DNA of 57,547 nt, taken from the NCBI RefSeq assembly GCF_001275675.1, contig NZ_LITM01000002.1, positions 119,322 through 176,868 on the forward strand. Direction: 5' to 3'. The position numbers and the translations under genes are program-made. The stretch comes from Lysinibacillus sp. FJAT-14745 (lineage in GTDB: Bacteria > Bacillota > Bacilli > Bacillales_A > Planococcaceae). Below, one piece after another: positions 24,538-57,547 of this stretch (position 1 is its first letter; each line of letters starts with the position of its first letter). The notes under the pieces are model-generated. The model was not told the DNA's origin. It saw only the letters and a program-made list of their open reading frames with translations, and did no database searches.

Positions 24538-24737
24538 GTTGATTTCCGTTCCAGCTGGGCGCTTTGTTGTTGCTGTCGCTACGCTTTCGCACAGTGCAAA
24601 GCTTCCTGGGGGCGTCCGATGAGCCGCTTGGGCCTACACGATGTGGGTCACGAAGGCGTTATCACAGGAAGTGATGGTTTTAGCCTTCGTTCCTTTATTA
24701 CTTATCCCAAAGGAGTCGCCCAGCCGTAACGAAGATC
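24538..24737. repeat. Family 2 stem-loop repeat, copy B, with modules U and M
   Basis: Outer arms GATTTCCGTT and AACGAAGATC pair, as do GCTGGGCG (24554-24561) and CGCCCAGC (24717-24724). That pairing differs in sequence from the other copies but is maintained. Inside is one U module (TTGTTGCTGTCGCTACGCTT...CGCACAG) and one M module at about 24630-24697. In M, CGAAGGC (24651) pairs with GCCTTCG (24683) and ATCAC with GTGAT; the first hairpin is CCTAC/GTGGG. The repeat lies inside the importer operon, between the isomerase and ATPase genes. Confidence 0.8.
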
Positions 24738-24809
24738 TACTTATAGACATTGCATTTGTTTTAACAAATATGATTCCAAATTTTTTGGTGATGTGCCTAA
24801 AAATTAACG

Positions 24810-25772
24810 TTATCTACAATACTTATCTCTAAACTCTAATGCATGTTTAATCGATTGTTCAGCACCTTGAATTTGTTTTTCAATCAGCTCTTCTAAATGT
24901 TCTTCAGGAGGGTAGTAATAATTTTCTGGCTCGATCACATTTCGATCAAATGGAGGATTCTCCACTTTAAACGCACCTTCTCCTACTTCAAAAACACCTC
25001 CTGTACCTTTTTCCCTTTTAAATCGAGCTACATACGGATAGCACATTTCGATATTAATTCTTGTTAATGGAGAATGCTCCACCATAATTTTAAAGATTTC
25101 GTCTAAATCGATATTTCCTTGTCCTGCCGGAACGCCGCACACTTTATAACCATCTTTTGCTTCGATGATAATATGATCTTTAAAGTGAGTTGTATACGTA
25201 TACGGAGCAAGCTTTCTTGCTGCTTCCACTGGGTCTTCCCATGCCATCATTGAATTTCCAAAATCACAATGAGCTCCTACCCAATAGCTGTTTACTTCAT
25301 TTACAATCTGTATAATTTCGTCAGCTATTTCTTCCTCATGGTTTTCAACAGCTAATTTAATGCGATATTTTTTTAAAAGTGGCACAACCTTTTTTATATT
25401 GCTTGGGGCTTGATCTAGTAATTCTTTCTCATATATCCCTGGACAGCAATACGTCCGAATCACATCCGCTCCAATTTTATGTGCTACTTCAATAACCTTT
25501 GATAAATGCTCTGGTTCTGTTCCTCTTGCGTCCATCTCTGCGTACAATCCATATTTTTCAATTTCCTTACGCACCTTCTCTAAATGATCAGGTTCAGCGC
25601 CGCCAAGAGCACCCCACTTAGGATGTAAATATTTATCGCCGGGATAAGCAATGACATTAATCATTACCCCATCCAAACCGTGTTCCGCTGTTGTTCTAAT
25701 AAAATCAAAAATATCCATTCGACCATTTTGAAAAAGTAAATGATAGGTTTCCGTTTCTAATCCTAATTTCAT
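24810..25772 (-). CDS. Sugar phosphate isomerase/epimerase-like TIM-barrel protein
   Basis: 320 residues of the AP-endonuclease-2/xylose-isomerase-like TIM-barrel family. Metal-binding type residues are visible in VENHEEE, GAHCDFGNSM, THFKDHI and INIEMCY, the usual Glu-Asp-His-Glu pattern. Such enzymes isomerise or epimerise sugars or inositol derivatives. ATG 25772 is chosen for GAAGGTGA upstream; an upstream in-frame ATG has none. Its place between importer and HAD phosphatase genes suggests it processes the imported compound. Exact substrate unknown. Confidence 0.85.
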   Translation of the reverse strand: MKLGLETETYHLLFQNGRMDIFDFIRTTAEHGLDGVMINVIAYPGDKYLHPKWGALGGAEPDHLEKVRKEIEKYGLYAEMDARGTEPEHLSKVIEVAHKIGADVIRTYCCPGIYEKELLDQAPSNIKKVVPLLKKYRIKLAVENHEEEIADEIIQIVNEVNSYWVGAHCDFGNSMMAWEDPVEAARKLAPYTYTTHFKDHIIIEAKDGYKVCGVPAGQGNIDLDEIFKIMVEHSPLTRINIEMCYPYVARFKREKGTGGVFEVGEGAFKVENPPFDRNVIEPENYYYPPEEHLEELIEKQIQGAEQSIKHALEFRDKYCR

Positions 25773-25847
25773 CCGTTTCACCTTCTGCGTAATCAATTTA
25801 ATCATTGCTTGTAGCTAGCTAGCTCTCTCTCAATAAATAACAATGTA

Positions 25848-26555
25848 TTATAAAATTTTCTGAATGTCTTTAACACTATCGATAATATAGTCTGCTTTTC
25901 CTTCTAGATCTTCCTTACTGCATGCACCAGAAAGAACCCCCGCTACTTCAATATGGCTGTTTCGTGCAAATCGAATATCAGTTAACGTGTCACCTACCAT
26001 TAAAACTTCTTCATCATTCAGTAGGAATTTATCTTTGAAAATATGATAACAATCACTATTAGGTTTAGGTTTATTGATTCCATCCTCTGCACTTAAAAAA
26101 TCTATATACTCATATAGATTAGTCATTTTAAGCGAATGAACAGCTGCATCAACATCGTCTGCAGTCACAATACCGATAATATAATCATGATCTTTTAAAT
26201 ACTTTAATGTTTCTTGTGCACCTTCTACTTCTGTGAATACGAGGTCATCTGATGTAGAATGCTTTTTGAATGATGCACAAACATCGTGTATAAATTCCCC
26301 TTTTTTAATATTTTTTTCTCTCAATATTGAAAACCATGCAGCAGCAATAAAAGAATTTGTTTGACTAGCTAGTAAACTCGTACTCTCAAAATTATTATTG
26401 TCCATTCCAATAATCTGCATATATTCATCTCGTCTATTCTTTTCATTCGGAAACTTTTGAAATATATCATTAAGTACACAATCAACGATTTTGTACCAAA
26501 CAGTATCGAGCTGTATTAATGTTCCATCCTTATCGAAAATGATTCCTTTCTTCAT
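25848..26555 (-). CDS. HAD-family phosphatase (phosphoglycolate phosphatase-like)
   Basis: 235 residues. Motif I is DKDGT near residue 8 (nucleophile Asp), motif II is the Thr in IGIVTADD, and motif IV is MVGDTLTDIRFA. The helical cap between motifs I and II places it with subfamily I phosphatases. ATG 26555 has TTAGGAGGCG upstream. It lies downstream of the solute-binding protein after a partial terminator. It may remove phosphate from an imported phospho-compound or its product; this is inference from context. Confidence 0.87.
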   Translation of the reverse strand: MKKGIIFDKDGTLIQLDTVWYKIVDCVLNDIFQKFPNEKNRRDEYMQIIGMDNNNFESTSLLASQTNSFIAAAWFSILREKNIKKGEFIHDVCASFKKHSTSDDLVFTEVEGAQETLKYLKDHDYIIGIVTADDVDAAVHSLKMTNLYEYIDFLSAEDGINKPKPNSDCYHIFKDKFLLNDEEVLMVGDTLTDIRFARNSHIEVAGVLSGACSKEDLEGKADYIIDSVKDIQKIL

Positions 26556-26616
26556 CTTCTTCGCCTCCTAAAAGCCTATTATTCTCTTTCTATTAGACCA
26601 TTTCACGAAATAAAGA

Positions 26617-26648
26617 AGGTACTTCTTTTATTCAAAAGAGAAGTACCT
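26617..26648 (-). terminator. Intra-operon attenuator hairpin
   Basis: AGGTACTTCTTTT pairs with AAAAGAGAAGTACCT, with a small bulge. On the minus strand the following tract is only partly T. It lies in the 115-bp gap between binding-protein and phosphatase genes and would let the binding protein be made in excess. Confidence 0.55.
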
Positions 26649-26670
26649 CCATTTCTCTTCGAATAGTTTA

Positions 26671-28029
26671 TTATTTCTTTTTAACTTTATCTAATTCTTC
26701 CTGAGCAATTTTCGCTGCTTCATCTAATGCTTCCTTTGCAGAGATTCCTTCGATTTCTACTTTATCTTTCGCTATATCTAATGCATCATAGATTTTTCCA
26801 CCAGTTGGATCGATAAATGGCGAAACACCATATTTATTCGCTTGCTCTAACGGAACTAACGCCTGCGGTTGTTTTTTCACGAAATCAGCATAAGGCTTAT
26901 AATCAGTAACATTGTTTTGAACAGGGATATAACCTGTTTCCATTGACCATTCAGCTGTTTTCTCAGTACTTGTCGCAAATTTCATAAACTCATATGCACC
27001 TTGTGCTACTTCTGGATCGGTATTTCTAGTTACTGTTAAAAAATAAGCTTCTAATTTAGGTGCTGGCTTATGGTCACCCCAGCCTGGTTGTGGAACTGCT
27101 CCAAATGTAGCTAGTCTTTCGGCTTCATTCATTCCCTCACCTAGCGATTTATAGACAAATCCTTGGTCACCAGATGAACCTGTATATCCTAACGTTCTAC
27201 CTTCAACAAAATCAATAATTGTGTTATCCCAATATTCCCATCCAGTACCACCTGTATGAATGTTCATGATTTTATCTTCATGAAGCCACTTACGGTATTG
27301 ATCCCATACTTTTACCCATGTTTCATCATTAATTAAAACTTTTGTTCCGTCTTCACTTAATACGTTTCCTCCTGCACTTCGAACCGAATCAATTAAGTTT
27401 GTCGTACCCCAAATTGGCATCCACCCTGCGTATTTAACGTTTCCATTTTCATCACGTTTTGATACTTTTTTGGCTACCTTTTCTACTCCTTCCCATGTCT
27501 TTAAGTCATCTGTAGTAAAACCATTTTCCTCTAATCCTTTTTTATTATAATAAAGAATCTGTGTTGTACCATATAGAGGAATTCCATATAATTTCCCACC
27601 AACTGTTGCTTGACTAACAAACCCATTACCATAATCGTCTATTTTTAATTCTTTATCATTGTTTATAAATGTATCGATTGGTACAACTAGCTCTTTGTTA
27701 ATATAGTTTTGAATAACGTCTGAACCTAGTAAAGCAATAGCTTCTTGATTGTTTGCCGCAAATCCACTTTGAAGCTTTTGATAAGACTCATCGTAGCTAC
27801 CTGCTTTTGTCGTTTTTACAACGTACTTGTCCTGACTTTGATTGAAATCCATCACAATTTTATCTAAACGATCAGCAAGTGATCCCCCAACTCCGTTAAT
27901 GAATGGGACAACGATTTTATCCCCTTCTTTAGTTACCTTAACTGTATTTCCTTCTCCTCCAGAACAACCTGCAAGTACACCAACAAATAATGCTACAACC
28001 ATAAAGAGCGCTATTAATTTCTTCATCAT
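26671..28029 (-). CDS. Extracellular solute-binding lipoprotein, UgpB-like
   Basis: 452 residues. Signal MKKLIALFMVVALFVGVLAGCSG has the lipobox LAGC, so the protein is tethered outside the membrane. The mature part has the two-lobed family 1 sugar-binding fold: early FINGVGGSLADRLDKIVMDFN, LYGIPLYGTTQILYYNKKGL, and aromatic residues around TGGTGWEYWDN. Similar proteins bind glycerol-3-phosphate, glycerophosphodiesters or sugars. AAAGGAGG precedes the start; ATG 28029 and 28026 are both possible. Partner permeases are encoded just upstream. Confidence 0.9.
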   Translation of the reverse strand: MMKKLIALFMVVALFVGVLAGCSGGEGNTVKVTKEGDKIVVPFINGVGGSLADRLDKIVMDFNQSQDKYVVKTTKAGSYDESYQKLQSGFAANNQEAIALLGSDVIQNYINKELVVPIDTFINNDKELKIDDYGNGFVSQATVGGKLYGIPLYGTTQILYYNKKGLEENGFTTDDLKTWEGVEKVAKKVSKRDENGNVKYAGWMPIWGTTNLIDSVRSAGGNVLSEDGTKVLINDETWVKVWDQYRKWLHEDKIMNIHTGGTGWEYWDNTIIDFVEGRTLGYTGSSGDQGFVYKSLGEGMNEAERLATFGAVPQPGWGDHKPAPKLEAYFLTVTRNTDPEVAQGAYEFMKFATSTEKTAEWSMETGYIPVQNNVTDYKPYADFVKKQPQALVPLEQANKYGVSPFIDPTGGKIYDALDIAKDKVEIEGISAKEALDEAAKIAQEELDKVKKK

Positions 28030-28051
28030 GAACTGCCTCCTTTAAAATTAG

Positions 28052-28879
28052 TTAACCCTTTATTCCAGAATCAGAAACACCTGAGAGGAACCATTTTTGT
28101 AATACTAAAAATACAAGTAAGAGTGGGACTGTTGCGATTGTACTTGCAACCATAATGTGTGACCAATCCCTGCCTAATGAGCTATTGATGAAGAAATCAG
28201 CAATCCCGTTAGTGATCAATTTTTTATCGTTATCTTTTAATACTAGCGCTGGCCAAATATAATTATTATAGTTTTCAATAAATGTCACTAAACCTAGTGT
28301 CACAAATGAAGATCGTGTCATCGGGAAGACAATCTTCCAAAGAATCTTCCAATCACTTGCTCCATCAATCTTGGCTGCTTCTACGATTTCATGACCCACT
28401 TTAAGGAACGCTTGTCTTAAATAAAAAATCCCAAATACACTAACCGATAAAGAAATAATGTATCCAAAATGAGTATTTAACATTCCCATTTTTGCTAACA
28501 TCACATACACAGGAACATACGATACAGCGCCTGGAATCATATATGTTGCCATGACTACGCCAAACGTTAATTCTTTCCCTTTAAATTTATAAAATGCCGA
28601 CATATAGGCAAAGAGCGCTGACGAAATAAGAACATAGATTGTAATAATCAACGAAGTATAGAAACTGTTAAATATATACGTGTGAAAAGGAATGACTCCT
28701 AATACTTCTTGATAATTTTCCCAATGAAATTCTTTTGGCCAAAAACCACCTTGTAGTACTTCACTGGATGTTTTAAACGAACTAAGGATCATCCAAATAA
28801 AAGGAAAGACAAACAACATGCTCGATAAAGCTAAAAAGAGATGCTTTAAAATAATCGGTGTCTTTTTATGATTACTCAT
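28052..28879 (-). CDS. ABC importer permease, UgpE-like (MalG family)
   Basis: 275 residues with six membrane helices. The cytoplasmic EAA loop EAAKIDGASDWKILWKIVFPM, which docks the ATPase, is near residue 175. The C-terminus ends WFLSGVSDSGIKG, typical of the MalG/UgpE branch (FVxGLtxGAvKG). The ATG at 28879 follows the stop of the first permease by three bases, so translation is coupled. Confidence 0.92.
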   Translation of the reverse strand: MSNHKKTPIILKHLFLALSSMLFVFPFIWMILSSFKTSSEVLQGGFWPKEFHWENYQEVLGVIPFHTYIFNSFYTSLIITIYVLISSALFAYMSAFYKFKGKELTFGVVMATYMIPGAVSYVPVYVMLAKMGMLNTHFGYIISLSVSVFGIFYLRQAFLKVGHEIVEAAKIDGASDWKILWKIVFPMTRSSFVTLGLVTFIENYNNYIWPALVLKDNDKKLITNGIADFFINSSLGRDWSHIMVASTIATVPLLLVFLVLQKWFLSGVSDSGIKG

Positions 28880-28882
28880 GTC

Positions 28883-29749
28883 TTAATAATTCACCCACTT
28901 GTCACCTATTATCTTGTTTATAAACGATAGTAGGATTGTAATAATTAATATGATAAATGCGATGGCTGTCGCGTATCCCATATCAAATTGTTCAAACGCT
29001 TGTTGGAAGAATAAATAGAGTAATGTTCTTGTCGAACCACTCGGTCCACCTTGTGTTAAGATTTTAATTTGATCATATGCTTGCAGCGATACAATCGTAT
29101 TCACAACAATTAAGAAAAAAGTTGTTGGTGAAACCATCGGAAGTGTTACATGTCGAAACTTCTGCCATGCATTAGCTCCATCAATACTTGCCGCTTCATA
29201 TAAGCTATCAGGTACCTTCTCGAGCGCTCCAATATAGAAAATCATTGTCCATCCAACTAGTTTCCAAACCGTTACAATAATGACTGCTAGCATTGCGGTT
29301 TCACTACTCTTAAGCCAATCCAATCCAGGTATCCCTACCAAGCCTAGCACCGTATTGATAACACCTAATTTCGGTTCATAAAGAAGTGACCATACAATCG
29401 ATACAGCTACTGTTGGTGTTACCCATGGCGAAAAAATCATCAATTTGTAAATGGCAGAGCCTCTGAAATTTTTTCTAAAGAACAAAGCAAAACCTAATCC
29501 TAATACAATCGTTGGAATAACTGTCCCAATTCCAAAATATAGAGTGTTCAGCAATGCCTGCTTAAACGATGACTGGGTAAACAAATTGAAATAGTTATCT
29601 AAACCAACAAAATGAAAATCGTTTGTCATGAAATCCCAGTCTGTAAAACTAATACCTAAACTAAACAAATTCGGAATAATCCAAAAGAGTGTAAGAGGTA
29701 TTCCAACCGGTAATAAAAAGAACACAGCCTTTGAAAATTTTATTTGCAT
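28883..29749 (-). CDS. ABC importer permease, UgpA-like (MalF family)
   Basis: 288 residues, six membrane helices, with the EAA loop EAASIDGANAWQKFRHVTLPM and the early FSLGISFTDWDFM and FVGLDNY strings typical of MalF/UgpA proteins. First gene of the operon. ATG 29749 has AGGAGGTGAC eight bases upstream; another ATG four bases earlier is in a different frame. The region upstream holds two 11-bp direct repeats, a likely regulator site. Confidence 0.92.
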   Translation of the reverse strand: MQIKFSKAVFFLLPVGIPLTLFWIIPNLFSLGISFTDWDFMTNDFHFVGLDNYFNLFTQSSFKQALLNTLYFGIGTVIPTIVLGLGFALFFRKNFRGSAIYKLMIFSPWVTPTVAVSIVWSLLYEPKLGVINTVLGLVGIPGLDWLKSSETAMLAVIIVTVWKLVGWTMIFYIGALEKVPDSLYEAASIDGANAWQKFRHVTLPMVSPTTFFLIVVNTIVSLQAYDQIKILTQGGPSGSTRTLLYLFFQQAFEQFDMGYATAIAFIILIITILLSFINKIIGDKWVNY

Positions 29750-29828
29750 TCATGTCACCTCCTGATACACATTGTAATGCCCAATTATTAATTAGATGTT
29801 GTATTTTCATTAATAAGTTGTAAAAATA

Positions 29829-29860
29829 AACATATAAACAAAACAAAACAACATATAAAC
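29829..29860. promoter_or_regulatory. Direct-repeat operator candidate upstream of the ugp-type operon
   Basis: AACATATAAAC occurs at 29829-29839 and 29850-29860, a 21-bp period (two helical turns), separated by CAAAACAAAA. This could be bound by a DeoR/GlpR-type repressor such as the one encoded at 33329-34117. Confidence 0.5.
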
Positions 29861-29869
29861 CAAAATATT

Positions 29870-29911
29870 ATCATAAAAAAACTATTTCTCGTTGTCATTG
29901 AGAAATAGTTT
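29870..29911 (-). terminator. Perfect hairpin with T run, possibly a leader terminator
   Basis: AAACTATTTCTC (29879-29890) and GAGAAATAGTTT (29900-29911) form a perfect 12-bp stem. On the minus strand it is followed by seven T. No minus-strand gene lies upstream, so it either attenuates the importer operon's leader or is left from a lost gene. Confidence 0.6.
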
Positions 29912-29924
29912 GATTAAAGTTTGA

Positions 29925-30050
29925 CAAATGTGTTGATTAATCATTTTTATACATTCGAAGAGGCTGTTTTCCGTTACGGGCTACTCGCTTTCCCGCGGGC
30001 GAGCGTCGAGTCACTTCCTCGGCTGCGATCCGTGCAAACTCTGCAGCCTT
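29925..30050 (+). repeat. Left-half fragment of a family 1 MITE
   Basis: TGTGTTGATTAATCATTTTTATACAT, GGGCTACTCGCTTTCCCGCGGGCGAGCGTCGAG and CTTCCTC match the left half of the complete copies with several substitutions. After the word GATCCGTGCA similarity is lost and the right half is absent. It lies between the divergent importer operon and MFS gene. Confidence 0.75.
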
Positions 30051-30183
30051 GTCGATTCTGGTAATCCATTAACCTCTATTTGATGAAGAAAGGTTTTTTC
30101 TCACAAAAAAATTTATGGTATGATGTTCAGGTTGTGTATCTACTATGTGACACATTTACATTCATCTAAGAAAAGAGGTATTT

Positions 30184-31374
30184 ATGCACCCCACAAAATT
30201 ATCCAAGCGACATTGGTTGCTTATCTTAACACTTTCTTTATTAACATTTGTTCTTGGGACAAGCGAATTTGTTATTGTCGGAATTTTAACAGATATTTCT
30301 TCAAGCCTACATATGACAAATGCAAAAGCAGGCACACTCGTTTCTGCGTTTGCCATTACGTTTGCCATCGCCACACCACTAGTGATGTCAGCAACAAGTC
30401 ATTTTCCAAAGCGTCAATGGATGTTGTTTTTGATAGGAGCTTTCATCATCCTGAATGCTTTGTGCGTCATTTCGACGAGCTACATCATGCTCCTTGCCCT
30501 TCGAATTATGACAGCGATTGTAACAGGGGTATTAATCTCCTTAGCTATGATTGTTGCAAGTGAAACCATGCCGATTAATAAACGCGGACTTGCTATTTCA
30601 TTCGTTTTTGGTGGTTTCACACTTGCAAATGTCATTGGAGTGCCAATTGGTATTGTAATCGCCGAATGGTATGGCTGGAATGCCACTTTCATGTTAACCA
30701 CTTTCCTTGGAGTATTGTCGTTTTTGGCCTCCTTTTTTGTCTTACCAAATAATCTCAGCCAAGTACGCAGTTCGATACGGGATCAGTTTTCTTTAATGAC
30801 CAAGCCACGAATTTTGATGGCTTTTTTCATTCCTGCTCTCGGATTTGGCGCAACTTATGCCGTCTTTACTTACCTTGTTCCTATTTTAAAGGGAATGGGA
30901 GCACCAAATAATTCAATTAGTTTCATCTTATTTGGTTACGGATTTATCTCGATTTTCAGCAACATCCTTGCAGGTAAAATTGCCAACCACAATGCAATCG
31001 GTCGCCTTCGGATTGTTTTTCTCGTGCAAGCAGTTGTTCTGACAAGTTTATTTTGGACTACAAATCATTTTATTTTAGGACTGATAAACATTGGCCTAAT
31101 GTCGTTAATGGCCATCCTCTTAACTACATCTACTCAGCTATATTTAATAGACCTCGCCGGAATTTATCAGCCAAATGCTACAGGACTCGCTGCTTCACTT
31201 ATGCCAGTGGCAAGCAACGTAGGCATCGCTTTTGGTTCTGCATTAGGAGGAATTGTATACCATCAAGGGAATTTATTGAATGTAACATGGGTCGGTGGAA
31301 TAGTTGCAGTCTGTGCAAGTCTATTAACTTTCTTTTGTCATCTTTTAGACCAAAAACAAAAGAAATCAGCATAA
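30184..31374 (+). CDS. MFS efflux transporter (DHA1 family)
   Basis: 396 residues, twelve predicted membrane helices. The first helix LTFVLGTSEFVIVGILTDIS and the loop-2/3 region fit drug:H+ antiporter family 1 members such as AraJ/Cmr/PbuE-like exporters; helix 5 carries GGFTLANVIGVPIG (motif C-like). Substrate could be drugs, sugars or purines. ATG 30184 has AGAGGT upstream. Single gene, divergent from the ugp-type operon. Confidence 0.88.
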   Translation: MHPTKLSKRHWLLILTLSLLTFVLGTSEFVIVGILTDISSSLHMTNAKAGTLVSAFAITFAIATPLVMSATSHFPKRQWMLFLIGAFIILNALCVISTSYIMLLALRIMTAIVTGVLISLAMIVASETMPINKRGLAISFVFGGFTLANVIGVPIGIVIAEWYGWNATFMLTTFLGVLSFLASFFVLPNNLSQVRSSIRDQFSLMTKPRILMAFFIPALGFGATYAVFTYLVPILKGMGAPNNSISFILFGYGFISIFSNILAGKIANHNAIGRLRIVFLVQAVVLTSLFWTTNHFILGLINIGLMSLMAILLTTSTQLYLIDLAGIYQPNATGLAASLMPVASNVGIAFGSALGGIVYHQGNLLNVTWVGGIVAVCASLLTFFCHLLDQKQKKSA

Positions 31375-31381
31375 AAATATA

Positions 31382-31726: not shown

Positions 31727-31746
31727 AGAGAATGTGCCTGTTTTAA
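31710..31746 (+). terminator. Terminator downstream of the MFS region
   Basis: CAGGCACATTC (31710-31720) and GAATGTGCCTG (31730-31740) form a perfect 11-bp stem followed by TTTT. Confidence 0.8.
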
Positions 31747-35480: not shown

Positions 35481-35637
35481 CAATTATGCCTCGACATAAT
35501 TGCGTCCGGAATCGGCTTTGTGCTTAGGCCTGCGTGAGGGCCAACACGATGTTGGTCACTCAGGCGTTTTCACAGGATGTGAAGGTTTTAGCCTGAGTTC
35601 CTCTCTTTCAGCGGATGTATGGACACCCGTTGAAAGA
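35481..35637. repeat. Family 3 structured repeat, copy 1, with module M
   Basis: It opens with hairpin CAATTATG/CATAATTG, followed by GCGTCCGGAATCGGCTTTGT. Module M occupies about 35539-35603: CCAAC/GTTGG, ACTCAGGC (35558) with GCCTGAGT (35591), TTCAC with GTGAA. It ends with TTTCAGCGG pairing roughly with CCGTTGAAA. It lies upstream of bcrC. Confidence 0.8.
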
Positions 35638-43843: not shown

Positions 43844-43921
43844 GTTGATTTCCGTTCCGACTGAGCGCTTTGTTGCTGACGCTGATCCCCAAGGAGTCGC
43901 TCAGTCTTCACTCCAATCAAC
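43844..43921. repeat. Family 2 stem-loop repeat, copy C (78 bp)
   Basis: GTTGATT and AATCAAC ends pair; GACTGAGCG (43859-43867) pairs with CGCTCAGTC (43898-43906). The loop begins CTTTGTTGCTGACGCTGATC, a truncated U module, and ends CCCCAAGGAGT. No M module. Confidence 0.85.
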
Positions 43922-47184: not shown

Positions 47185-47552
47185 CAATTATGCCTCTGCA
47201 TAATTGCGTCTGTATTCGGCTTTGTGCTTAGGCCGGCAAATGTTTTTTGTGCGAAAGCGTAGCGGCAGCAACAGATGTTTTTTGCGCGAAAGCGTAGCGG
47301 CAGCAAAAGGTTTTCATCTGTGCGAAAGCAAAGCGACAGCAACAGCACCGATGCAGGTCAGTTAGCCGTTATCGCATGGATGCGATGGTTTTAGGCTAAC
47401 ATCCCCTAAGCACTCCTTTCCAATTCCGTGACATTCGCCGGAGGCTTTGGGCCAACGTGATGTTGGTCACTCAGTCGTTGCCACAGGACGTGGCGTTCTT
47501 AGAATGAGTTCCTCTATTTCAGCGGCTGTTTGGACACCCTCTGAAAAGTAGC
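47185..47552. repeat. Family 3 structured repeat, copy 2, with two M modules and tandem U modules
   Basis: It opens with CAATTATG/CATAATTG as in copy 1. Then come three reverse-oriented U units at about 47242-47343 (each with a GCGAAAGCGTAGCGGCAGCA core). First M: GTTAGCC (47361) with GGCTAAC (47394), inner ATCGCA/TGCGAT. Second M at about 47450: CCAAC/GTTGG, ACTCAGTC (47469) with GAATGAGT (one mismatch), inner GCCAC/GTGGC. It ends TTTCAGCGG ... CTGAAA. This is the most elaborate repeat in the window. Confidence 0.8.
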
Positions 47553-49310: not shown

Positions 49311-49579
49311 GTTGATTTCCGTTCCGACTGAGTGCTTTGTTGCTGACGCTTCGCTTTCGCACAGTTAAAACATTTGTTGCTGACGCTTCGCTTTCGCACA
49401 GTTAAAACATTTGTTGCTGACGCTTCGCTTTCGCACAGAAAACATCCGCTTGCGCTCCAGGGTCTCGGGCTAACAGGATGTTAGTCACGAAGGCGTTATC
49501 ACAGGACGTGATGCTTTTAGCCTTCGTTCCTCTATATCGCTAATCCCCAAGGAGTCACTCAGTCCCCACTCCAATCAAC
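49311..49579. repeat. Family 2 stem-loop repeat, copy D, with three tandem U units and one M
   Basis: GTTGATT/AATCAAC ends; GACTGAGTG (49326-49334) pairs with CACTCAGTC (49557-49565), a compensated change from GCG/CGC. The loop holds three 37-nt U units (starts 49337, 49374, 49411) each with TTGTTGCTGACGCTTCGCTT. Module M follows at about 49467-49535: CTAAC/GTTAG, CGAAGGC (49488) with GCCTTCG (49520), ATCAC/GTGAT. Confidence 0.85.
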
Positions 49580-50495: not shown

Positions 50496-51161
50496 TCATG
50501 TCTTTTGCAAAACCTTTAAGATATTTTGAATTTCTATTAAATGATCAATGATGTAATCCGCTTCAACGCTTTGCCATGCATCATTTCGTTTCCAAATAGC
50601 CATCATTCCTACTTTTTTAGCAGCTTCCACATCATTAAAAAGATGATCCCCAACGTAAATACTTTCATTAGCTGACACTTTTAGCTTAGATAACGCCCGA
50701 TCAAATATTTCTGCATCCGGCTTTTTAATGCCCTCCCATTCAGAGATAAGAATCACGTCAAAAACATCTTCAATACCTAACGCTCGTATATTATCTAATT
50801 GAAATTGCCCATAACCATTTGTGATCATACCAAGTTTTAAGCCTTGTTTCTTCAAATTGTGCAACATCCATTGCAAGTTTATAAATGGAACACAAGAATG
50901 CTTAAATTCCTGTAGATAATCCTCTAACATTGCTTTTGGAGATAACTCAATAGAAAATTCTTCGATTAATTGCTGATAGACTTTATCTTTCCATTCATAG
51001 CCATGATTATCTAGCTCAATAAAGCGTTTAACATAGTTTTCTTTTAAAATATGTGATAGATTTGGCTTTAATCGTTCGTATTGCTGTTCTACAAATGTAC
51101 GAACAGAACTATTACGATCTAACAATGTTCCATCTAAATCAAAAATCACCGCTTGAATCAT
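50496..51161 (-). CDS. HAD-family hydrolase
   Basis: 221 residues. Motif I is FDLDGTLLDRNSSVRTFV, motif II LGMITNGYGQFQ, motif III Lys in WEGIKKPDAEIF, motif IV YVGDHLFNDVEAAKKVGM, and the cap is helical: subfamily IA phosphatase, similar to YjjG/YsaA-like nucleotidases. ATG 51161 has GAGGGGGA upstream. It follows a small membrane gene by 16 bp. Confidence 0.9.
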   Translation of the reverse strand: MIQAVIFDLDGTLLDRNSSVRTFVEQQYERLKPNLSHILKENYVKRFIELDNHGYEWKDKVYQQLIEEFSIELSPKAMLEDYLQEFKHSCVPFINLQWMLHNLKKQGLKLGMITNGYGQFQLDNIRALGIEDVFDVILISEWEGIKKPDAEIFDRALSKLKVSANESIYVGDHLFNDVEAAKKVGMMAIWKRNDAWQSVEADYIIDHLIEIQNILKVLQKT

Positions 51162-51177
51162 ATCACTGCATCCCCCT

Positions 51178-51366
51178 CTACAACTCTTTACGTTTTTTCA
51201 CTGTCACTACCGCTATCATCACCATTACTAACTTCATCACCAAAATTAATGCGTAAACGCTAAAGGATATGATGGCTGGCAAAAGCACTAACCACCAAGA
51301 CCATGCGATGACATTCGTGAGCTTTAATACTATAAAGACAACTGTTAATACTTCAGCGATTCCCAT
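51178..51366 (-). CDS. Small two-helix membrane protein (TMEM185-like)
   Basis: 62 residues with two helices (VLTVVFIVLKLTNVIAWSWW and LLPAIISFSVYALILVMKLV). The WSWWLVLLP string occurs in small Bacillus proteins annotated as transmembrane Fragile-X-F-associated. ATG 51366 has GGTGG upstream. Probably co-transcribed with the HAD gene. Confidence 0.65.
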   Translation of the reverse strand: MGIAEVLTVVFIVLKLTNVIAWSWWLVLLPAIISFSVYALILVMKLVMVMIAVVTVKKRKEL

Positions 51367-51580
51367 ATTCACACCACCAGATATCTGATTTTCGTCATTC
51401 CGAATTTAGTTTCTTGTCGTTAACTCTTCTGAAGTCTTTACCTAAATTTGCCCCTACAACTATTTAATCACTTTACATGAAATGTTTAAAACTTTTTTTA
51501 AAATGACGAACCTTTCCATTTGGTAATTCGTCTAAATATTGGAAACTTTGAGTTCCAGAGAAAAAAAGGGAGAAATGATC

Positions 51581-52735
51581 ATGAAAAAACCGATTAAAAA
51601 AACTTGGATGATTGCATCAGCGCTAACAATAGGAATGGCTGTTCTGACACCACTTCAAGCAGGAGCTACTGCAGTAGAACCAGCAAATGGTGTTACTATT
51701 CAAATCGAACAACAAATTACAGGAGCGATTAAAGGAATCAATGATGACGGGATTTATCTAAAAGGTAGAGATGGTAAAAATTACCATATCAATTTCTTTA
51801 AATTTTCTGATGAACAAATAGCAAAAATGAACCTAGTAGAAGGACAGGAAATCACAGTTGAAGGCAGCGCAGTAGAGGATTATTCAGACTTCTATACATT
51901 CGAAGTTTATAAAAAAGAATTGCCTAAAGAGGTAACAAATGAAGATTTAACAAAATTAGAAAAAATGTTTAACGAAGCGAAGAAGCTGCAAAAAGAAGCT
52001 GCAAAAGCGGATGAAAATAAAGCGATTGAAGAGGCAGAAAAGAAATATGAAGAAATGCATAAAATTTATGTAGACATGGGTAAAATTATTAAGCCATATT
52101 ATTTAGCTACTTGGCAACCTGAACCATTTGAAGAGTATATAGAAAATTTCGGCTTTAGTGAAAAAAATATAGTTTTAGAAGAAAATGATAAAAAACAGCT
52201 TAAAGATATTTATGAAGAATGGATAAAGCTTGAAAAAGATAGTCAAGAGGAAAAGGCAAACGAAAAAATGAATGAGTTTCACAAAATCCTTCAACCGTAT
52301 TTTGATAAACTTTATCCAACTCCAACATTTGAAGCGTTTATCGAAAGATTTGAGTTAGATATCCCTGCTGAAGATTTTGCAAAACTAAAAAATGTTTATG
52401 ATAATGCTCAAAAAGCAGAAAAAGATAAAAACGCTGATGAGTCTGTAAAATTGTGGGAAGAATTCTATTACATCATTGATCAATTCATAAAGCCTCAAAC
52501 ATTTGAAGAATACATGGCTGACTATGAATTCAAAGTTAGCGAAGCGGATAGTAAGCAATTAAAACAGCTTTATGAAGAAATCTTAAAGCTAGATATAAAA
52601 GAAGACAAAGCAAAAATTGAAGAGAAATGGGAAGCATTTCACAATATTTTAGAACCATATTTCAAAGCAAATAAAGATATTCTAATTTCACCTTCTAAAC
52701 TAACAGTTAACGGTCAATACTATCTTCCACAATAA
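51581..52735 (+). CDS. Secreted helical-repeat protein, paralogue 1
   Basis: 384 residues. Signal peptide KKTWMIASALTIGMAVLTP, probably cut after LQAGATA. Residues ~45-100 form a small beta domain (ITGAIKGINDDGIYLKGRDG ... EGQEITVEGSA) resembling an OB-type fold. The rest is about four repeats of ~65-70 residues, each a helical pair with consensus FEEYxxxFxxSEx and LKxIYEEWxKLEK..., ending QPYFxKLYPTPTFE. No known family recognised. ATG 51581 is chosen because GGGAG is eight bases upstream. It is tandemly duplicated (53457-54602, roughly 75% identical by eye). Confidence 0.8.
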   Translation: MKKPIKKTWMIASALTIGMAVLTPLQAGATAVEPANGVTIQIEQQITGAIKGINDDGIYLKGRDGKNYHINFFKFSDEQIAKMNLVEGQEITVEGSAVEDYSDFYTFEVYKKELPKEVTNEDLTKLEKMFNEAKKLQKEAAKADENKAIEEAEKKYEEMHKIYVDMGKIIKPYYLATWQPEPFEEYIENFGFSEKNIVLEENDKKQLKDIYEEWIKLEKDSQEEKANEKMNEFHKILQPYFDKLYPTPTFEAFIERFELDIPAEDFAKLKNVYDNAQKAEKDKNADESVKLWEEFYYIIDQFIKPQTFEEYMADYEFKVSEADSKQLKQLYEEILKLDIKEDKAKIEEKWEAFHNILEPYFKANKDILISPSKLTVNGQYYLPQ

Positions 52736-52745
52736 GTAAAAGAAT

Positions 52746-52795
52746 CGAGGTGTCTCAACAATCATTTAAGATGATTGTTGGGATTCCTCTTTTTA
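52746..52795 (+). terminator. Terminator of paralogue 1
   Basis: CAACAATCAT pairs with ATGATTGTTG, with an outer GAGG/CCTC, followed by five T. The equivalent hairpin after paralogue 2 differs in sequence but keeps its pairing. Confidence 0.8.
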
Positions 52796-52846
52796 ATTCG
52801 ACAATAATATTTAGGGATTTTTTCCAAAGTTCAAACCATAGTGCAA

Positions 52847-53310
52847 TCAGTTTACTTCTATAGAAAAAATATAAGAAGATTTTCCTTTTACCCATCTTCC
52901 GATATAAGTCCCCTTCTCTTTTGAAACAGAGAAAACATTACCTTGTACTTTTACATCCCCTCAATAGGTTGTTTTTTTAATCTAATTTTCAGGTGTGTTG
53001 ATTAACCATTTTTATACATCCAAAGAGGCTGATTTCCGCTACGGGCTACTCGCTTTCCTGCGGGCGAGCGTCGAGCCGCTTCCTCCGCTTCGCTCCGTGC
53101 AGGGTCTCGTCTGTCTCGCTTTCCCGCGGGAGTCGAGTAGCCCTACGCTACAATCAGTTAAAATGGAAATATATTGGCAAAGTGGTAACGAAAAAATCCT
53201 TTTATCGCTCAATAATAAACTTATTTTTTCCTAATCAACACGCCTGATTCTTTATAAGACTTTTCCAGCAATATGTACCTTGTACTGTTGATGCTTTATA
53301 TAATCTGACT
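52847..53310 (-). pseudogene. Dead copy of the membrane-anchored partner gene, split by a MITE
   Basis: On the minus strand, sequence from about 53310 to 53247 reads VQGTYCWKSLIKN (intact gene: VQGTYCWQNIINN). Then the MITE interrupts. Beyond it come KIRLKKQPIEGM-stop and then KVQGNVFSVSKEKGTYI, GRWVKGKSSYIFSIEVN-stop, matching the C-terminus of the gene at 54676. The start and membrane anchor are gone, ~100 bp in the middle is deleted at the MITE edge, and there is an internal stop. Confidence 0.85.
52990..53246 (+). mobile_element. MITE-like element, family 1, copy 2 (257 bp)
   Basis: Ends CAGGTGTGTTGATTAA and CCTAATCAACACGCCTG. Nearly identical to the reverse complement of copy 1. The flanks (TCTAATTTT and ATTCTTTAT) show no direct duplication, consistent with a deletion next to one end. 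It splits the partner pseudogene between the two helical-repeat genes. Confidence 0.85.
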
Positions 53311-53456
53311 GCTCAAACTTTGGAGTTATATAACTATTTATGTACTTAACATGGAAATTTTTAAAATTTTTTTTAAAATAATGAACTTTTTCAACTGGAA
53401 ATACGTCTATATATTGGAAACGTTAAGTTCCAGAGTAAATAAAAGGGGAAATGATC

Positions 53457-54602
53457 ATGAAAAAACCGATTAAAAAAACTTGGATGATTGCTTCAGCACT
53501 AACAATAGGAATGGCTGTTCTGACGCCACTTCAAGCAGGTGCTACTTCAGTAGAACCAACAAATGGTGTTACTGTTCAAATCGAACAACAAATTACAGGA
53601 ACGATTAAAGGCATCTACGGAGATGGGATTGATCTAAAAGGTAGAGACGGTAAAAACTACTATATCGGCTTCTATAAATTTTCTGATGAACAACTAGAAA
53701 AAATGAACTTAGTAGAAGGACAGGAAATCACAGTTGAAGGTAGCGTAGCAGAGGATTATTTAGACTTCTATACATTTGAAGCTTATAAAAAAGAATTGCC
53801 TAAAGAGGTAACGAAAGAAGAGCTAACAAAATTAGAAAAATTGTTTAATGAAAAGAAAAAGCTGCAAAAAGAATTGTCAAATGAAATGAAAGAAGAAGAA
53901 GTCGAAAAGAAATTTGAAGAAATCGATAAAATTTACAAAGAAATGGATAAAATTACAAAACCATATATATTAGCTAAGTGGCAACCTCAAACATTCGAAG
54001 AGTATATAGCAGATTTCGGATTTAGTGAAAAAAATATAGTTATTGAAGAAAATGATAATAAACAGCTTAAAGTTATTTATGAAGAATGGGTAAAACTTGA
54101 AAAAGATGGTCAAGAGGAAAAGGCTAACGAAAAAATGAATGAATTTTACAAAACCCTTCAACCATATTTAGATAAACTTTATCCAACTCCGACATTTGAA
54201 GAATACATGGAAAGATTTAAGTTAGATATCCCAGCTGAAACTTTAGCGAAACTAAAAAATATTTATGATAATGCTCAAAAAGCAGGAAAAGATGACAATG
54301 CTGATTTGTCTGAAAAACTATGGGAGGATTTCTATGACATCATTGATCCATTCATAAAGCCTCAAACATTTGAAGAATATATGGCTGACTATGAATTCAA
54401 AGTTAGCGAAGCGGATAGCAAGCAATTAAAACAGATTTATGAAGAAATCTTAAAGCTAGATAAAAAAGAAGACAAAGCAAAAATTGAAGAGAAATGGGAA
54501 GCATTTAATAATATTTTAGAACCATATTTCAAAGCAAATAAAGAAATTCTAATCACTGCTTCTAAAATAATAATTAACGGCCAAGAATATCTTCCTCAAT
54601 AA
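53457..54602 (+). CDS. Secreted helical-repeat protein, paralogue 2
   Basis: 381 residues, with the same signal peptide, OB-like domain and about four helical repeats as paralogue 1. Differences cluster in the first repeat (KKLQKELSNEMKEEEVEKKF against KKLQKEAAKADENKAIEEAE). The last repeat is almost identical (FEEYMADYEFKVSEADSKQL). ATG 53457 is preferred over 53451 because AGGGGAA is eight bases upstream. Promoter-proximal sequence is also duplicated. It faces the intact membrane-anchored gene. Confidence 0.8.
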   Translation: MKKPIKKTWMIASALTIGMAVLTPLQAGATSVEPTNGVTVQIEQQITGTIKGIYGDGIDLKGRDGKNYYIGFYKFSDEQLEKMNLVEGQEITVEGSVAEDYLDFYTFEAYKKELPKEVTKEELTKLEKLFNEKKKLQKELSNEMKEEEVEKKFEEIDKIYKEMDKITKPYILAKWQPQTFEEYIADFGFSEKNIVIEENDNKQLKVIYEEWVKLEKDGQEEKANEKMNEFYKTLQPYLDKLYPTPTFEEYMERFKLDIPAETLAKLKNIYDNAQKAGKDDNADLSEKLWEDFYDIIDPFIKPQTFEEYMADYEFKVSEADSKQLKQIYEEILKLDKKEDKAKIEEKWEAFNNILEPYFKANKEILITASKIIINGQEYLPQ

Positions 54603-54617
54603 GGAGAAGAATTGAAG

Positions 54618-54662
54618 TGTCCCACTAATCATTGGAAATGATTGGTGGGATTCCTCTTTTTT
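54618..54662. terminator. Terminator of paralogue 2
   Basis: CCCACTAATCATT (54621-54633) pairs with AATGATTGGTGGG (54637-54649), followed by TTCCTCTTTTTT. Confidence 0.85.
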
Positions 54663-54675
54663 AGACTTAATTTAA

Positions 54676-55119
54676 TCATTTTACTTCTATAGCAAAAATA
54701 TAAGAAGAATTTCCTTTGTCCCATCTTCCTGAAATACTATATATATAAGTCCCCTTCTCTTTCGGTACAGAGAAAACATTATCATTTACCTTTACTAGCT
54801 CAATCTCATCGCTGCTATACCATTTGTCTACTTCTATCCCATCAATTGGTGGTTTCTTAAAACTAATTTTGATCTCACTTCGTGGTGGAACAGAAAACGG
54901 AACAATTTTTTTATTAGCAATAATTTCAGGTGGTGGAACTTTATCAACACATTCATTATTTATAATATTTTGCCAACAATACGTACCTTGTACAATTGGT
55001 ACTTCTTTACCTTCCGACAATACAGTAGGCTTCGGTGGTCCAGCATTAAGTAGCATAATCATCCATACAAATACGATAATAAATATTATACTTATTATTT
55101 TTATCTTTAGATTTCCCAT
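54676..55119 (-). CDS. Membrane-anchored exported protein (partner of the helical-repeat gene)
   Basis: 147 residues. One N-terminal helix (IISIIFIIVFVWMIMLLNAG) and an extracellular beta-rich domain with two Cys (GTYCWQN and NECVDK) and Pro-rich stretches (KVPPPEII, FSVPPRSEIKISFKKPP). The end GTYIYSISGRWDKGNSSYIFAIEV is typical of Ig-like small domains. No named family recognised. ATG 55119 has AGGAGGA upstream. It converges on paralogue 2; a dead copy sits in the same place after paralogue 1. Confidence 0.75.
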   Translation of the reverse strand: MGNLKIKIISIIFIIVFVWMIMLLNAGPPKPTVLSEGKEVPIVQGTYCWQNIINNECVDKVPPPEIIANKKIVPFSVPPRSEIKISFKKPPIDGIEVDKWYSSDEIELVKVNDNVFSVPKEKGTYIYSISGRWDKGNSSYIFAIEVK

Positions 55120-55278
55120 TTAAAATCCTCCTATTCAGCTTAACCAATATCACTTCGCTCTAATAGAAAATGAATTTCACTATTTTCCCGCCATTTAAAT
55201 TATGTATAACAAAAAAATGAATTAAGTGAATAATTAGCAAGCCTATATGACACATTACATATAGGAGGTGGAAGAGTA

Positions 55279-55524
55279 ATGTCTAAAATAATTGGTGTGG
55301 AACAAACATTAACAAACGTTGAAGACGCTTTAAAGGCAAAAGGTTATGAAGTTATTCAGCTTCGTACGGAAGAAGATGCAAAAAAATGTGATGCCTGTGT
55401 AATCACTGGGCAAGACAGAGATATTATGGGAATTAGCGATCCTATCATGGCAGGACCTATTATAGACGCTGATGGTCTTTCTGCTGACGAAGTACTTCAA
55501 CGTGTCGACAAATATTTCCACTAA
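55279..55524 (+). CDS. YkuS/UPF0180-family protein
   Basis: 81 residues. [40 protein letters not shown] and the C-terminal [12 protein letters not shown] match the UPF0180 (YkuS) family, small cytosolic proteins of unknown function in Bacillales. ATG 55279 has TAGGAGGTGG upstream. Confidence 0.9.
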
Positions 55525-55532
55525 TAAATGAC

Positions 55533-55578
55533 TTGGTGCTGTCGCTGTAGTTTTTTGACTATGGAGCAGCACCTTTTA
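55533..55578 (+). terminator. Possible terminator of the YkuS gene
   Basis: GGTGCTG (55535-55541) and CAGCACC (55567-55573) pair across a 25-nt loop, followed by TTTT. Confidence 0.55.
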
Positions 55579-55685
55579 ATATTATGGCGATCATAGAATG
55601 GTCAATTATATAAGTGACCCATTTTCACACGGAGTGATCATTTAGTTAAACTTTATTGGCAAACACCTAAAGGATTATCGTCTGG
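55579..55685. other. Spacer upstream of the IS200/IS605-type end
   Basis: About 105 bp without a gene, possibly the remains of the element's body or left flank; I cannot identify the left end. Confidence 0.3.
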
Positions 55686-55816
55686 ATCATAGGGAGGGGT
55701 AATGGGATACCCCAATCTTGAGAGCTGTTCAAAACAGAAATGGACTGCGAACGCTTAGTTACTCAGGAATCCCACTGACATTAGTCAGCTTGTCCCTTTA
55801 GGGGTGGGAATCTCAA
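55686..55816 (+). mobile_element. Solo IS200/IS605-type right end, omega-RNA-like scaffold
   Basis: GCGAACGCTTAGTTACTCAG, then GAATCCCAC ... CCCTTTAGGGG, then TGGGAATCTCAA at 55816, is the conserved right-end pattern of IS605-group elements carrying tnpB, whose transcript is the TnpB guide (omega/reRNA) scaffold. Upstream GGGGTAATGGGATACCCC and AGAGCTGTTC fit the same scaffold. The usual terminal hairpin contains an extra insertion with its own CTGAC/GTCAG stem. No tnpA or tnpB is present. The element ends exactly where the stop codon of the next gene begins. Confidence 0.65.
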
Positions 55817-56116
55817 TTATGTAGACCTTGGTGAAAAAACGTTTTTTATCGCACCTATTATTCCAGGCACGAGAAATACGATGCCAAAAAAGATAGTAAG
55901 TAAATTGAAATGTTGTGTTTCATAAAAAGTAAACCACTCTCTGAAAATTGAAGCTTCAGTAATTCTGCCAAATAACGTTCCACTCAAATCTCGATAATTA
56001 GGTATCCACCCTGTTACTTCAAATGTAATAAAGATGATCTGTGACAATACGAATACCCCAATAGAAGATACCCAAGGTCTTTTCAAAAATGGAATATGAT
56101 TTTGTTTTTTAGCCAT
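55817..56116 (-). CDS. YfzA-like membrane protein
   Basis: 99 residues, two membrane helices (WVSSIGVFVLSQIIFITFEV and LLTIFFGIVFLVPGIIGAI) joined by a ~40-residue loop with RDLSGTLFGR and FREWFTFYE. Resembles YfzA of Bacillus, function unknown. ATG 56116 has GGAGGAAGGGGG upstream. The stop codon (55817-55819) abuts the IS-type end, so the last residues may have been altered by the insertion. Confidence 0.7.
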   Translation of the reverse strand: MAKKQNHIPFLKRPWVSSIGVFVLSQIIFITFEVTGWIPNYRDLSGTLFGRITEASIFREWFTFYETQHFNLLTIFFGIVFLVPGIIGAIKNVFSPRST

Positions 56117-56240
56117 GTAATCCCCCTTCCTCCTTTAAATACTATTTATAAATTAACGTTAAATCAAGGATTTAATTCCAAAATTAAACATAATCCTAAA
56201 CCCACTTTGTGCTTGAATAATAACAGTTCTTTAAATATAT

Positions 56241-56384
56241 CTAGTATTTCTCTGAAAACCCATCTTTAAGGATTTCCATTATCTCTTGACCAAAAAACGA
56301 AACTGTCAATAGAATTAATACAAGGAAAATAGCTAAACAACCGAAAATTAACGAGAACACTATCCCCATTTTTTTATCATTCAA
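56241..56384 (-). CDS. Small one-helix membrane protein
   Basis: 47 residues, NDKKMG then helix IVFSLIFGCLAIFLVLILLTVSFFG and an acidic tail. TTG 56384 has AGGAGGGG eight bases upstream, which decides the start; the longer frame lacks a site. Family unknown; same strand as the YfzA-like gene. Confidence 0.55.
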   Translation of the reverse strand: MNDKKMGIVFSLIFGCLAIFLVLILLTVSFFGQEIMEILKDGFSEKY

Positions 56385-56429
56385 TAAAACCCCTCCTATT
56401 TCAGCTTTGTTCCTCGATAAAAAAGACAT

Positions 56430-56690
56430 CTTTTATTTAATAATACCTCAAATCAGATGTATTTGGATAAATATTTCCATTTACTTTAAATTAGTTATCA
56501 AGGCTGGTTCATATCGAACTATTGCTTACAGAGTGGTCTTTTATGTTTTTTAACTTAAGCACTACGAGCTACTGTTAATCGTTGAATTTTTGTTCCATTT
56601 GATTAAACGTTCTTCATCCTTCCACAAATGTTAAAAGCATCCATCTTCAAAAAGACATAACATAGCTTTTTCATCCTTTCAAAGCAAAAT
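56430..56690. other. Gene-free spacer
   Basis: 260 bp, AT-rich, nothing recognised. Confidence 0.4.
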
Positions 56691-56691
56691 A

Positions 56692-56724
56692 AAAAGCCAC
56701 ACCTTGTTAGAAGATGTGACTTCA
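56692..56724 (-). terminator. Terminator of the 75-residue gene
   Basis: AAGCCACACCTT and AAGATGTGACTT pair with wobbles; five T follow on the minus strand. A similar CCACACCT sequence near 57031 suggests a second diverged copy. Confidence 0.6.
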
Positions 56725-56733
56725 TATATTTGA

Positions 56734-56961
56734 TTAATCAAATTCTAAAATATTTTTTTCTACTACTACTTGATAAACTTCTTTAGTACTAATTAAAATC
56801 GTTTTATAATGTTCTGTTTCAGTAAATGAATACCAAGACTTCTCATTGAAACCATTAGAAAGTTCTTCTGTAAATGTTTCTTGTTCAATATTATTCTTGA
56901 TTTTATATTCTTCTTCACGGCCTTCGTCAAAGTAAAACTTTACTTTATATTCATACTCCAT
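56734..56961 (-). CDS. Small hypothetical protein
   Basis: 75 residues, soluble, alternating charged and aromatic residues (YEYKVKFYFDEGREEEYKIK, SWYSFTETEHYKTILI) suggesting a small beta-rich fold. Unknown family. ATG 56961 has GGGAGGTG upstream and a terminator follows. Confidence 0.65.
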   Translation of the reverse strand: MEYEYKVKFYFDEGREEEYKIKNNIEQETFTEELSNGFNEKSWYSFTETEHYKTILISTKEVYQVVVEKNILEFD

Positions 56962-57239
56962 AAATCAACACCTCCCATCTACTTATATAATGGGTTGAAA
57001 ATACAAAAAATATGAAACATAATAAAATGCCACACCTCGTTAGGTATGACATTCTATCTGCTTTATTTTCTGCTCAGCTCAAAGTCCACGGGTTCATTGG
57101 AGAAAATATCCGTTACATTGAACTTTCACTATGTTTCAAGTTAAATCAAAATCTTGATATACCTGTGTTTTTTTACCATTACATTATTCTCGCTGAATAT
57201 ACCATTTAGTTAATGATTGGTCATTTTTGAGTCACTGCC

Positions 57240-57547
57240 CCAGGTGTGTTGATTAACCATTACATCCAAAGAGGCTGATTTCCGCTACGGGCTACTCGCT
57301 TTCCTGCGGGCGAGCGTCGAGCCGCTTCCTCCGCTTCGCTCCGTGCAGGGTCTCGGGCCAACACGATGTTGGTCACGAAGGCGTTATCACAGGATGTGAT
57401 GGTTTTAGCCTTCGTTCCTCTATCGCTTTCCCGCGGGAGTCGAGTAGCCCTACGCTACTATCAGTTAAAAGGAAATATATTAGCAAAGTGGTAACGAAAA
57501 AATCCTTTTATCGCTCAATAATAAACTTATTTTTTCCTAATCAACAC
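57240..57547 (+). mobile_element. MITE-like element, family 1, copy 3, carrying module M (cut by window end)
   Basis: Starts CAGGTGTGTTGATTAACC and runs to the window end at TAATCAACAC, a few bases short of the expected CGCCTG. At the site where copy 2 reads TCTCG-TCTGTCT-CGCTTT, this copy reads TCTCG, then a 68-nt M module (57356-57423), then CGCTTT. M stems: CCAAC/GTTGG, CGAAGGC (57376) with GCCTTCG (57408), ATCAC/GTGAT. A deletion of ~12 nt near the left end shortens TTTTTATACATCC. Confidence 0.85.

Follow-up and report, generated by a model that had tools for sequence, protein, structure and literature searches.

Bacillaceae-1 modules in Lysinibacillus: a covarying fold of stable-RNA operons found within mosaic palindromic repeats

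Six Bacillaceae-1 copies in the window

This study concerns a hairpin module in the draft genome of Lysinibacillus sp. FJAT-14745 (assembly GCF_001275675.1), examined in a window of 57,547 nucleotides (nt), which is the whole stretch of DNA that was analysed (contig NZ_LITM01000002.1, positions 119,322 to 176,868 of the forward strand). An initial annotation, made from the letters alone, had noticed six copies of the module, and all six lie where it had placed them. A scan of the window against Rfam 15 identifies each of them as RF01690, the Bacillaceae-1 RNA, on the minus strand. Copies 1 (24633..24699, 75.4 bits) and 5 (49470..49536, 78.4 bits) are located within palindromic frames of type A, copy 6 (57358..57424, 76.0 bits) is located within a frame of type B, and copies 2 (35541..35607, 77.4 bits) and 4 (47452..47518, 68.6 bits) have a C-type context. 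Copy 3 (47342..47410, 44.0 bits) has diverged stems (type III) and adjoins copy 4. These six are the only sequences in the window to reach the gathering score of 35, with E-values from 7.8e-13 to 8e-5, and the only match to any other Rfam family is the end of a group II intron.

The layout given in the initial annotation is correct for the plus strand. The annotation had not recognised the module as a described family and had itself named a match to a catalogued family as an outcome that would speak against it. With all six copies above threshold, a new RNA family is ruled out; the module was already catalogued, and the annotation had described its reverse complement.

Fold and covariation

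An alignment of 44 copies from many genera yields three helices with 17 pairs, namely an outer stem whose internal loop is conserved, the stem of an inner hairpin, and that of a second hairpin. With the fold derived from this same alignment and with sequences that are mostly best-scoring matches, both of which favour structure, paired cells amount to 96.3% (69.3% in shuffles), the covariation score is 0.737 (0.210 in shuffles and at most 0.121 with slid partners), and 204 cells are changed on both sides (54 in shuffles). Each of these three values was reached by none of 500 shuffles. Two further measures do not stand out, as 28 of the 500 shuffles equal the 13 of 17 pairs with double changes and 182 equal the number of pair types. 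The selection for a fold suggested by the initial annotation is supported by this covariation test on 44 aligned sequences, and the fold is maintained by compensatory change.

Bacillaceae-1 consists of two hairpins with the terminal-loop consensus RUCCU. Loop 2 agrees with it in most copies (GGA on the plus strand in 122 of 126 host copies), and loop 1 of the host genome mostly departs from it (GGA in 21 of 126). On the Rfam strand, the pair closing the loop of the two hairpins is R-U in 42/44 and 40/44 copies, which favours this strand, although the module folds on both strands. A conserved 5' tail, AAGGA, is complementary to the UCCU loops on the same strand, and a contact between tail and loop is possible; covariation cannot probe this contact because the bases involved hardly vary.

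Dispersed copies and larger repeats in Lysinibacillus

The host genome contains 147 matches to the module, which is therefore not a chance occurrence. Copies per genome within the host genus range from 0 (under stricter filters) to this number, and the complete Lysinibacillus genome G560 has 94. The module shares with RF01690 the covariance model, by which the six window copies score above the gathering threshold, and the two-hairpin layout. RF01690 is catalogued as a small RNA gene, whereas the 147 host copies are dispersed, many of them nested in palindromic repeats, with no close stable-RNA neighbour found.

The host copies sort into types by their outer stem (e.g., GAAGGC, TCAGTC, TCAGGC, and TTAGCC), and in 72 of the 147 the motif GTTGATT precedes and AATCAAC follows the module, each within 350 nt. 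The sequences around them, analysed for all 147, are mosaic and built from smaller units. One of these units, H, is 37 nt long and occurs in tandem beside the module, inside frames, and dispersed (also at 47237-47342 of the window and, for example, at C29:428303), and a motif search found it between the arms of module hairpin 1 in 13 of the 147 host copies, eight of which have the same 36-nt spacing. Twin modules 87-88 nt apart can share a single A frame, in which they fill two different places (e.g., C28:165508/165596, C25:249864/249952, and C24:65712/65800). An open frame of at least 100 codons, with no start codon required, encloses 38 of 146 host copies.

The view of the initial annotation that the copies belong to different repeat families is borne out, as they were found in three kinds of larger repeat. 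In the window, the A-type frame at 24538..24740 (GTTGATTTCCG..., with a diverged right terminus) carries copy 1, and the one at 49311..49579 carries copy 5 together with three tandem H units (family D10) at 49336..49446. Two further A-type frames, at 23185..23256 and 43844..43921, have no module; the ends of all four are approximate. The B-type frame at 57240..57547, of which the left end is approximate, carries copy 6 and is cut by the window end. A B-type frame without a module is located at 52990..53246, with inverted ends CAGGYGTGTTGATTA, and another at 5819..6075 is inverted and 99% complementary to it.

At the locus orthologous to that of the 24.6 kb copy, L. xylanilyticus and genome G079 share this A frame but have no module in it; the two are identical there, may represent one species, and are counted once. 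Genome G118 is without the whole frame at this locus, with flanks about 95% identical. Since frame with module, frame alone, and neither of them occur at one locus, module and frame both vary there. Within A and B frames, the module replaces about 8 nt (GGGTCTC/ATCTGTGA or GTCTGTCT/CGC), and among loci chosen for bearing the module, filled and empty frames number 23 and 3 for A and 13 and 3 for B. Insertion with target duplication was considered and rejected, as no clear duplication was found at the A and B joints. Judged from these sequence comparisons, the module is here a passenger in larger repeats.

Seven aligned loci of G560 (L229-L235) share a non-coding element of approximately 850 bp with imperfect inverted ends (CATAGTGTTGAAAAA.../...TTTCAACAACATG), which contains two modules in two frames. 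A terminator-like hairpin of about 30 nt is repeated on either side of the element in L230 and L232, which suggests that the element inserted at terminator hairpins. The element does not appear to carry a transposase, as there is no open frame of more than 82 codons in the seven aligned loci.

Orientation of the dispersed copies

In 107 of 146 host copies, the Rfam strand is the one that most nearby genes are coded on. Among the 104 copies with at least three neighbouring pieces, 81 match the regional GC skew (p ~1e-8); one of the 147 copies was skipped here. Agreement with the skew extends to gaps between convergent or divergent genes (27 of 37 copies, p 0.008). Twelve copies are flanked on both sides by genes opposed to the regional direction; eight of these keep to the regional direction, a number too small for a decision (Fisher p 0.21). 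With leading strands that are inferred rather than annotated, 68 of the 94 copies in G560 follow the leading strand when the terminus is set at mid-chromosome, and between 57 and 71 do so with the terminus at the other positions tried; the ratio is 48:12 on one side of the chromosome and 20:14 on the other. On the evidence of skew, the dispersed copies are oriented with replication.

Such an orientation, in the host as in the G560 replicate, would be expected of a pure DNA element, that is, a palindromic unit without an RNA role that is handled as single-stranded or cruciform DNA at the replication fork in the manner of REP/BIME repeats. High copy number, nesting in palindromic frames, and tandem twins also fit this explanation, as does the scarcity of stem wobbles, which take up 13 of 799 cells across the 47 distinct copies taken from other genomes. 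We nevertheless regard it as distinctly unlikely. Agreement with the GC skew is found mainly in C (32/33) and "other" (18/20) contexts and less in A (27/42) and B (5/10) contexts, the loop-closing R-U pairs tell against it, and copies in RNA operons are nearly always sense. Moreover, no mobilising enzyme turned up, although no search aimed at transposases was made.

Setting in stable-RNA operons of other Bacilli

The module is matched in 146 of 200 genomes of the order and in 82 of 398 genomes of the class, with per-genome copy numbers that are lower bounds (at least about 24 and at least about 12, respectively, at the top). Bacillaceae-1 is often located next to ribosomal RNA (rRNA) operons. 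In several, though not all, other families of Bacilli, the module is located in operons of rRNA and transfer RNA (tRNA), and nearly all copies are sense, the last hairpin often abutting the mature 5' end of the 5S, tRNA, or 16S that follows. It occurs directly before 16S (L193 and L194), between 16S and 5S and directly before the latter (L207, L304, L346, and L347), between 23S and 5S (L300), and between tRNAs or between a tRNA and 5S (L204, L289, L291, L297, L305, L306, and others). In L207, L304, L346, and L347, which belong to genome G376, 5S lies between 16S and 23S; this genome has 15 matches to 5S.

Among the 16 copies listed for G376 (of 25 matches), 15 have a tRNA or rRNA gene no more than 106 nt away, and the remaining one, beside its twin, is at 223 nt. 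In G338, a tRNA or 5S gene is found no farther than about 40 nt from each of the 10 copies examined (11 listed of 24 matches), and in G348, 16 of the 18 examined are in operons, with two at contig ends where no RNA was seen (21 listed of 32 matches). The six copies examined in G347 all have a stable-RNA setting (8 listed of 10 matches). In G496, eight module matches are 4785-4968 nt from the eight 5S genes, and the one that was read directly abuts 16S.

With tRNAs located by ARAGORN and gaps entered by hand, 34 of the 50 copies with a measured downstream gap end -1 to +3 nt from the mature 5' end that follows. The gap is 0 in all 10 copies before 5S, while upstream gaps of operon copies vary. 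This count leaves out copies followed by another copy (L282 1501, L341 657, L352 971, and L358 987), copies lacking any downstream RNA in the sequence covered (two of L348, L359 883, and L201), L290 (which scores the same as L283), L299 (a gapped 16S match, gap 14), the contig-end loci L356 and L360, the tandem locus L284 (where no RNA was seen), loci that recur in L297, matches that were weak or partial, and three antisense copies (L192, L196, and L292 1501). By genome, gaps of -1 to +3 nt were found in 16/17 copies in G348, 9/11 in G338, 4/14 in G376 (all four before 5S), and 0/3 in G347, as well as in all five single copies from four additional genomes. The tight join is therefore characteristic of one genome family and of 5S rather than a rule. 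In the 16 loci scanned first, seven copies abut a stable RNA within 3 nt, and the copy of L201 is about 130 nt after a tRNA.

The exact joins between the module and the 5' ends of 5S, tRNA, and 16S could conceivably have been made at the RNA level, with the cassette copied onto processed RNA ends, for example through end-to-end template switching by a reverse transcriptase, and returned to the chromosome by recombination. Bacillaceae-1 would then be an RNA-hairpin parasite of stable-RNA operons that, in Lysinibacillus, turned into a DNA passenger within palindromic repeats. We consider this origin very unlikely.

The dispersed setting, which Lysinibacillus shares with some other lineages, contrasts with this operon setting as far as the surroundings of the copies were covered. 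Around the host copies, there is no tRNA within 130 nt in the surrounding pieces and no 16S or 5S motif in those pieces, the host being a draft genome and rRNA operons often being lost in drafts. In the complete genome G560, none of the 94 copies is within 500 nt of 5S. No rRNA or tRNA was seen around the module in 12 loci of G329, G543, and G319.

The strongest competitor of the reading proposed below is a dedicated signal of stable-RNA operons, in which a protein (a ribonuclease, or RNA polymerase where the module serves as an antitermination element) recognises the module and the dispersed copies are escaped relatives. It would explain why no copy examined in G376, G338, or G348 was shown to be outside stable-RNA operons (the two at contig ends could not be placed) and why G496 has one module per 5S gene (8/8). 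The loops, the internal loop, and the tail are better conserved than the stems, and the module is repeated along tRNA clusters, both of which we count in favour of such a signal. On the other hand, paralogous operons within a single genome may or may not carry the module, it is reversed in two 16S leaders, and neither the 147 nor the 94 copies of the two Lysinibacillus genomes include one found beside a stable RNA at the distances tested. A dedicated signal is accordingly possible, though on the unlikely side.

A spacer cassette with two uses

Whether the fold acts as RNA or as a single-stranded DNA substrate was left undecided by the initial annotation. The location among rRNA and tRNA genes of operons in several other families speaks for RNA, and a DNA-level component is also present, as indicated by the dispersal, the presence or absence of the module within orthologous frames, and the orientation with replication. 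The reading that we prefer, and to which we give an even chance, combines both levels. Bacillaceae-1 may be a folded, transcribed spacer cassette that is cut away by RNA maturation and that spreads as DNA with palindromic repeats. In stable-RNA operons, the module would be transcribed and would fold at once, and ordinary 5' maturation would cut it off at the base of the last hairpin, by RNase P for tRNA and by rRNA nucleases for 5S and 16S. The module could thereby act as a removable, self-folding spacer or punctuation, whereas the dispersed form would spread as DNA together with the palindromic repeats, so that the operon and dispersed settings would be two uses of one cassette. The reading fits most of these observations, in that the module would cost nothing where maturation removes it and would ride as DNA in palindromic repeats, and we also count the loop-closing R-U pairs for it.

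Several observations weigh against this reading. In G376 and G347, a stretch of 31-241 nt separates the tRNA-linked copies from the tRNA that follows, so a direct join is not a requirement. The 16S leaders of L192 and L196 carry the module antisense to the rRNA, and one copy in a tRNA operon (L292) is antisense as well. In L350 and L351, tRNA-Ile directly precedes 5S, and hence not every 5S carries the module. Eight of the 16 loci scanned first have no rRNA or tRNA in the surrounding sequence. Finally, wobbles within the stems favour the plus (window) strand, by 45 to 18 in 106 distinct host copies, and the predicted RNA is more stable on this strand in 91 of the 106. The 47 distinct copies from other genomes give the same picture, with 12 wobbles to 1 for the window strand (nine of the 12 at one terminal pair) and a lower predicted energy on that strand in 43. 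The wobble bias was at first favoured as proof of the sense strand; we dropped this argument because it is on the Rfam strand that the loop-closing pairs are R-U and that most operon copies are sense. We lean towards the Rfam strand as the sense strand in tRNA and 5S operons; elsewhere, either strand may be the sense one.

The CsrA question

The strand also bears on a proposal from the literature. Gardner and colleagues (PMC4333381) note that the reverse complement of Bacillaceae-1 matches the CsrA-binding motif, that its discoverers were unsure of the strand, and that the GGA loops so presented might titrate CsrA as a sponge. The host genome encodes CsrA. Among the 126 host copies that are 67 nt long, plus-strand loop 2 reads GGA in 122; in other genomes it does so in 43 of 47 distinct copies, or 44 if one that is out of register is counted. 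The loops are not always AGGAN or TGGA as in the initial annotation: loop 1 is GGA in 31 and CGA in 16 of the 47 copies elsewhere, and GGA in only 21 and CGA in 84 of the 126 host copies; GGA is thus not general to both hairpin loops of the CsrA-binding strand.

In a survey of 200 genomes, for which lists were compared by eye and one csrA-less genome was inferred from a gap in a list, the module is present in 140 of 179 genomes with csrA and in 6 of 21 without (Fisher 8e-6), a stronger association than expected. It persists when one genus is removed (6 of 14 csrA-less genomes carry the module, p 0.007) and within one genus (26/34 vs 3/9, p 0.04, with the genus of one genome unassigned), but the association is not independent because the genomes are related. 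The csrA-less genomes G131 and G133 keep 20 and 66 copies, so CsrA is not needed for carriage even though the association remains. A sponge would also require the strand that is antisense in most operon copies, and we judge it highly improbable.

Other features of the window

The group II intron end (RF00029, 49.4 bits) is at 15519-15603 on the minus strand, and the short open reading frames beside it (15065-15451 and 14147-14512) have no Pfam match. Two neighbouring similar genes at 51539-52735 and 53451-54602 share DNA stretches that are 87-91% identical, contain internal repeats, and have no Pfam match. The best named relative of one window protein is from L. xylanilyticus (95% identical), in a search that may omit entries from the host itself.

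Relation to known systems and implications

A 2022 paper in Gene reportedly distinguishes two classes of Bacillaceae-1 in Bacillus, one in rRNA clusters and one intergenic, and describes expression of the reverse complement ahead of 16S in B. subtilis; the division into rRNA-linked and intergenic copies is therefore not new here. To our knowledge, that paper does not treat abutment on tRNA or 5S 5' ends, mosaic repeats, or orientation with replication. The literature searched likewise yielded no text on tRNA/5S abutment, mosaic nesting, or replication orientation of Bacillaceae-1, and within the collection searched, nothing on the module was found in work on Lysinibacillus repeats or tRNA-operon hairpins. 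The BOX and RUP repeats of pneumococcus are modular. They are interspersed repeats (PMC3049150), like the host module.

REP/BIME and the stem-loop repeat families (PMC2817692 and PMC2267715) are high-copy, palindromic, mostly intergenic, and mosaic, and the host module copies have all of these properties, although an open frame encloses 38 of 146. The module differs from REP/BIME in its covarying three-stem fold and its stable-RNA operon habitat elsewhere. REP/BIME palindromes are associated with a Y1 (RAYT) transposase; no such partner came up here, although no search aimed at one was made. The stem-loop family Bhal-1 of B. halodurans (74 nt, 36 copies) could be the same module.

Weinberg et al. 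(2010; PMC2864571) class Bacillaceae-1 among RNAs, with a cis-regulatory role considered improbable. Eight copies not annotated before are recorded for B. subtilis in BSGatlas (PMC8208703), and 10 are counted in a Brevibacillus genome note (PMC5764928). The family has been in Rfam for more than 10 years, without a settled function or agreed strand (PMC4333381). The placement of the module against the mature 5' ends of 5S, tRNA, and 16S means that a cut can be mapped, which makes a direct test possible. In Lysinibacillus, the same fold is present as a multi-copy passenger of mosaic palindromic repeats, and its gain and loss can be traced between close species.

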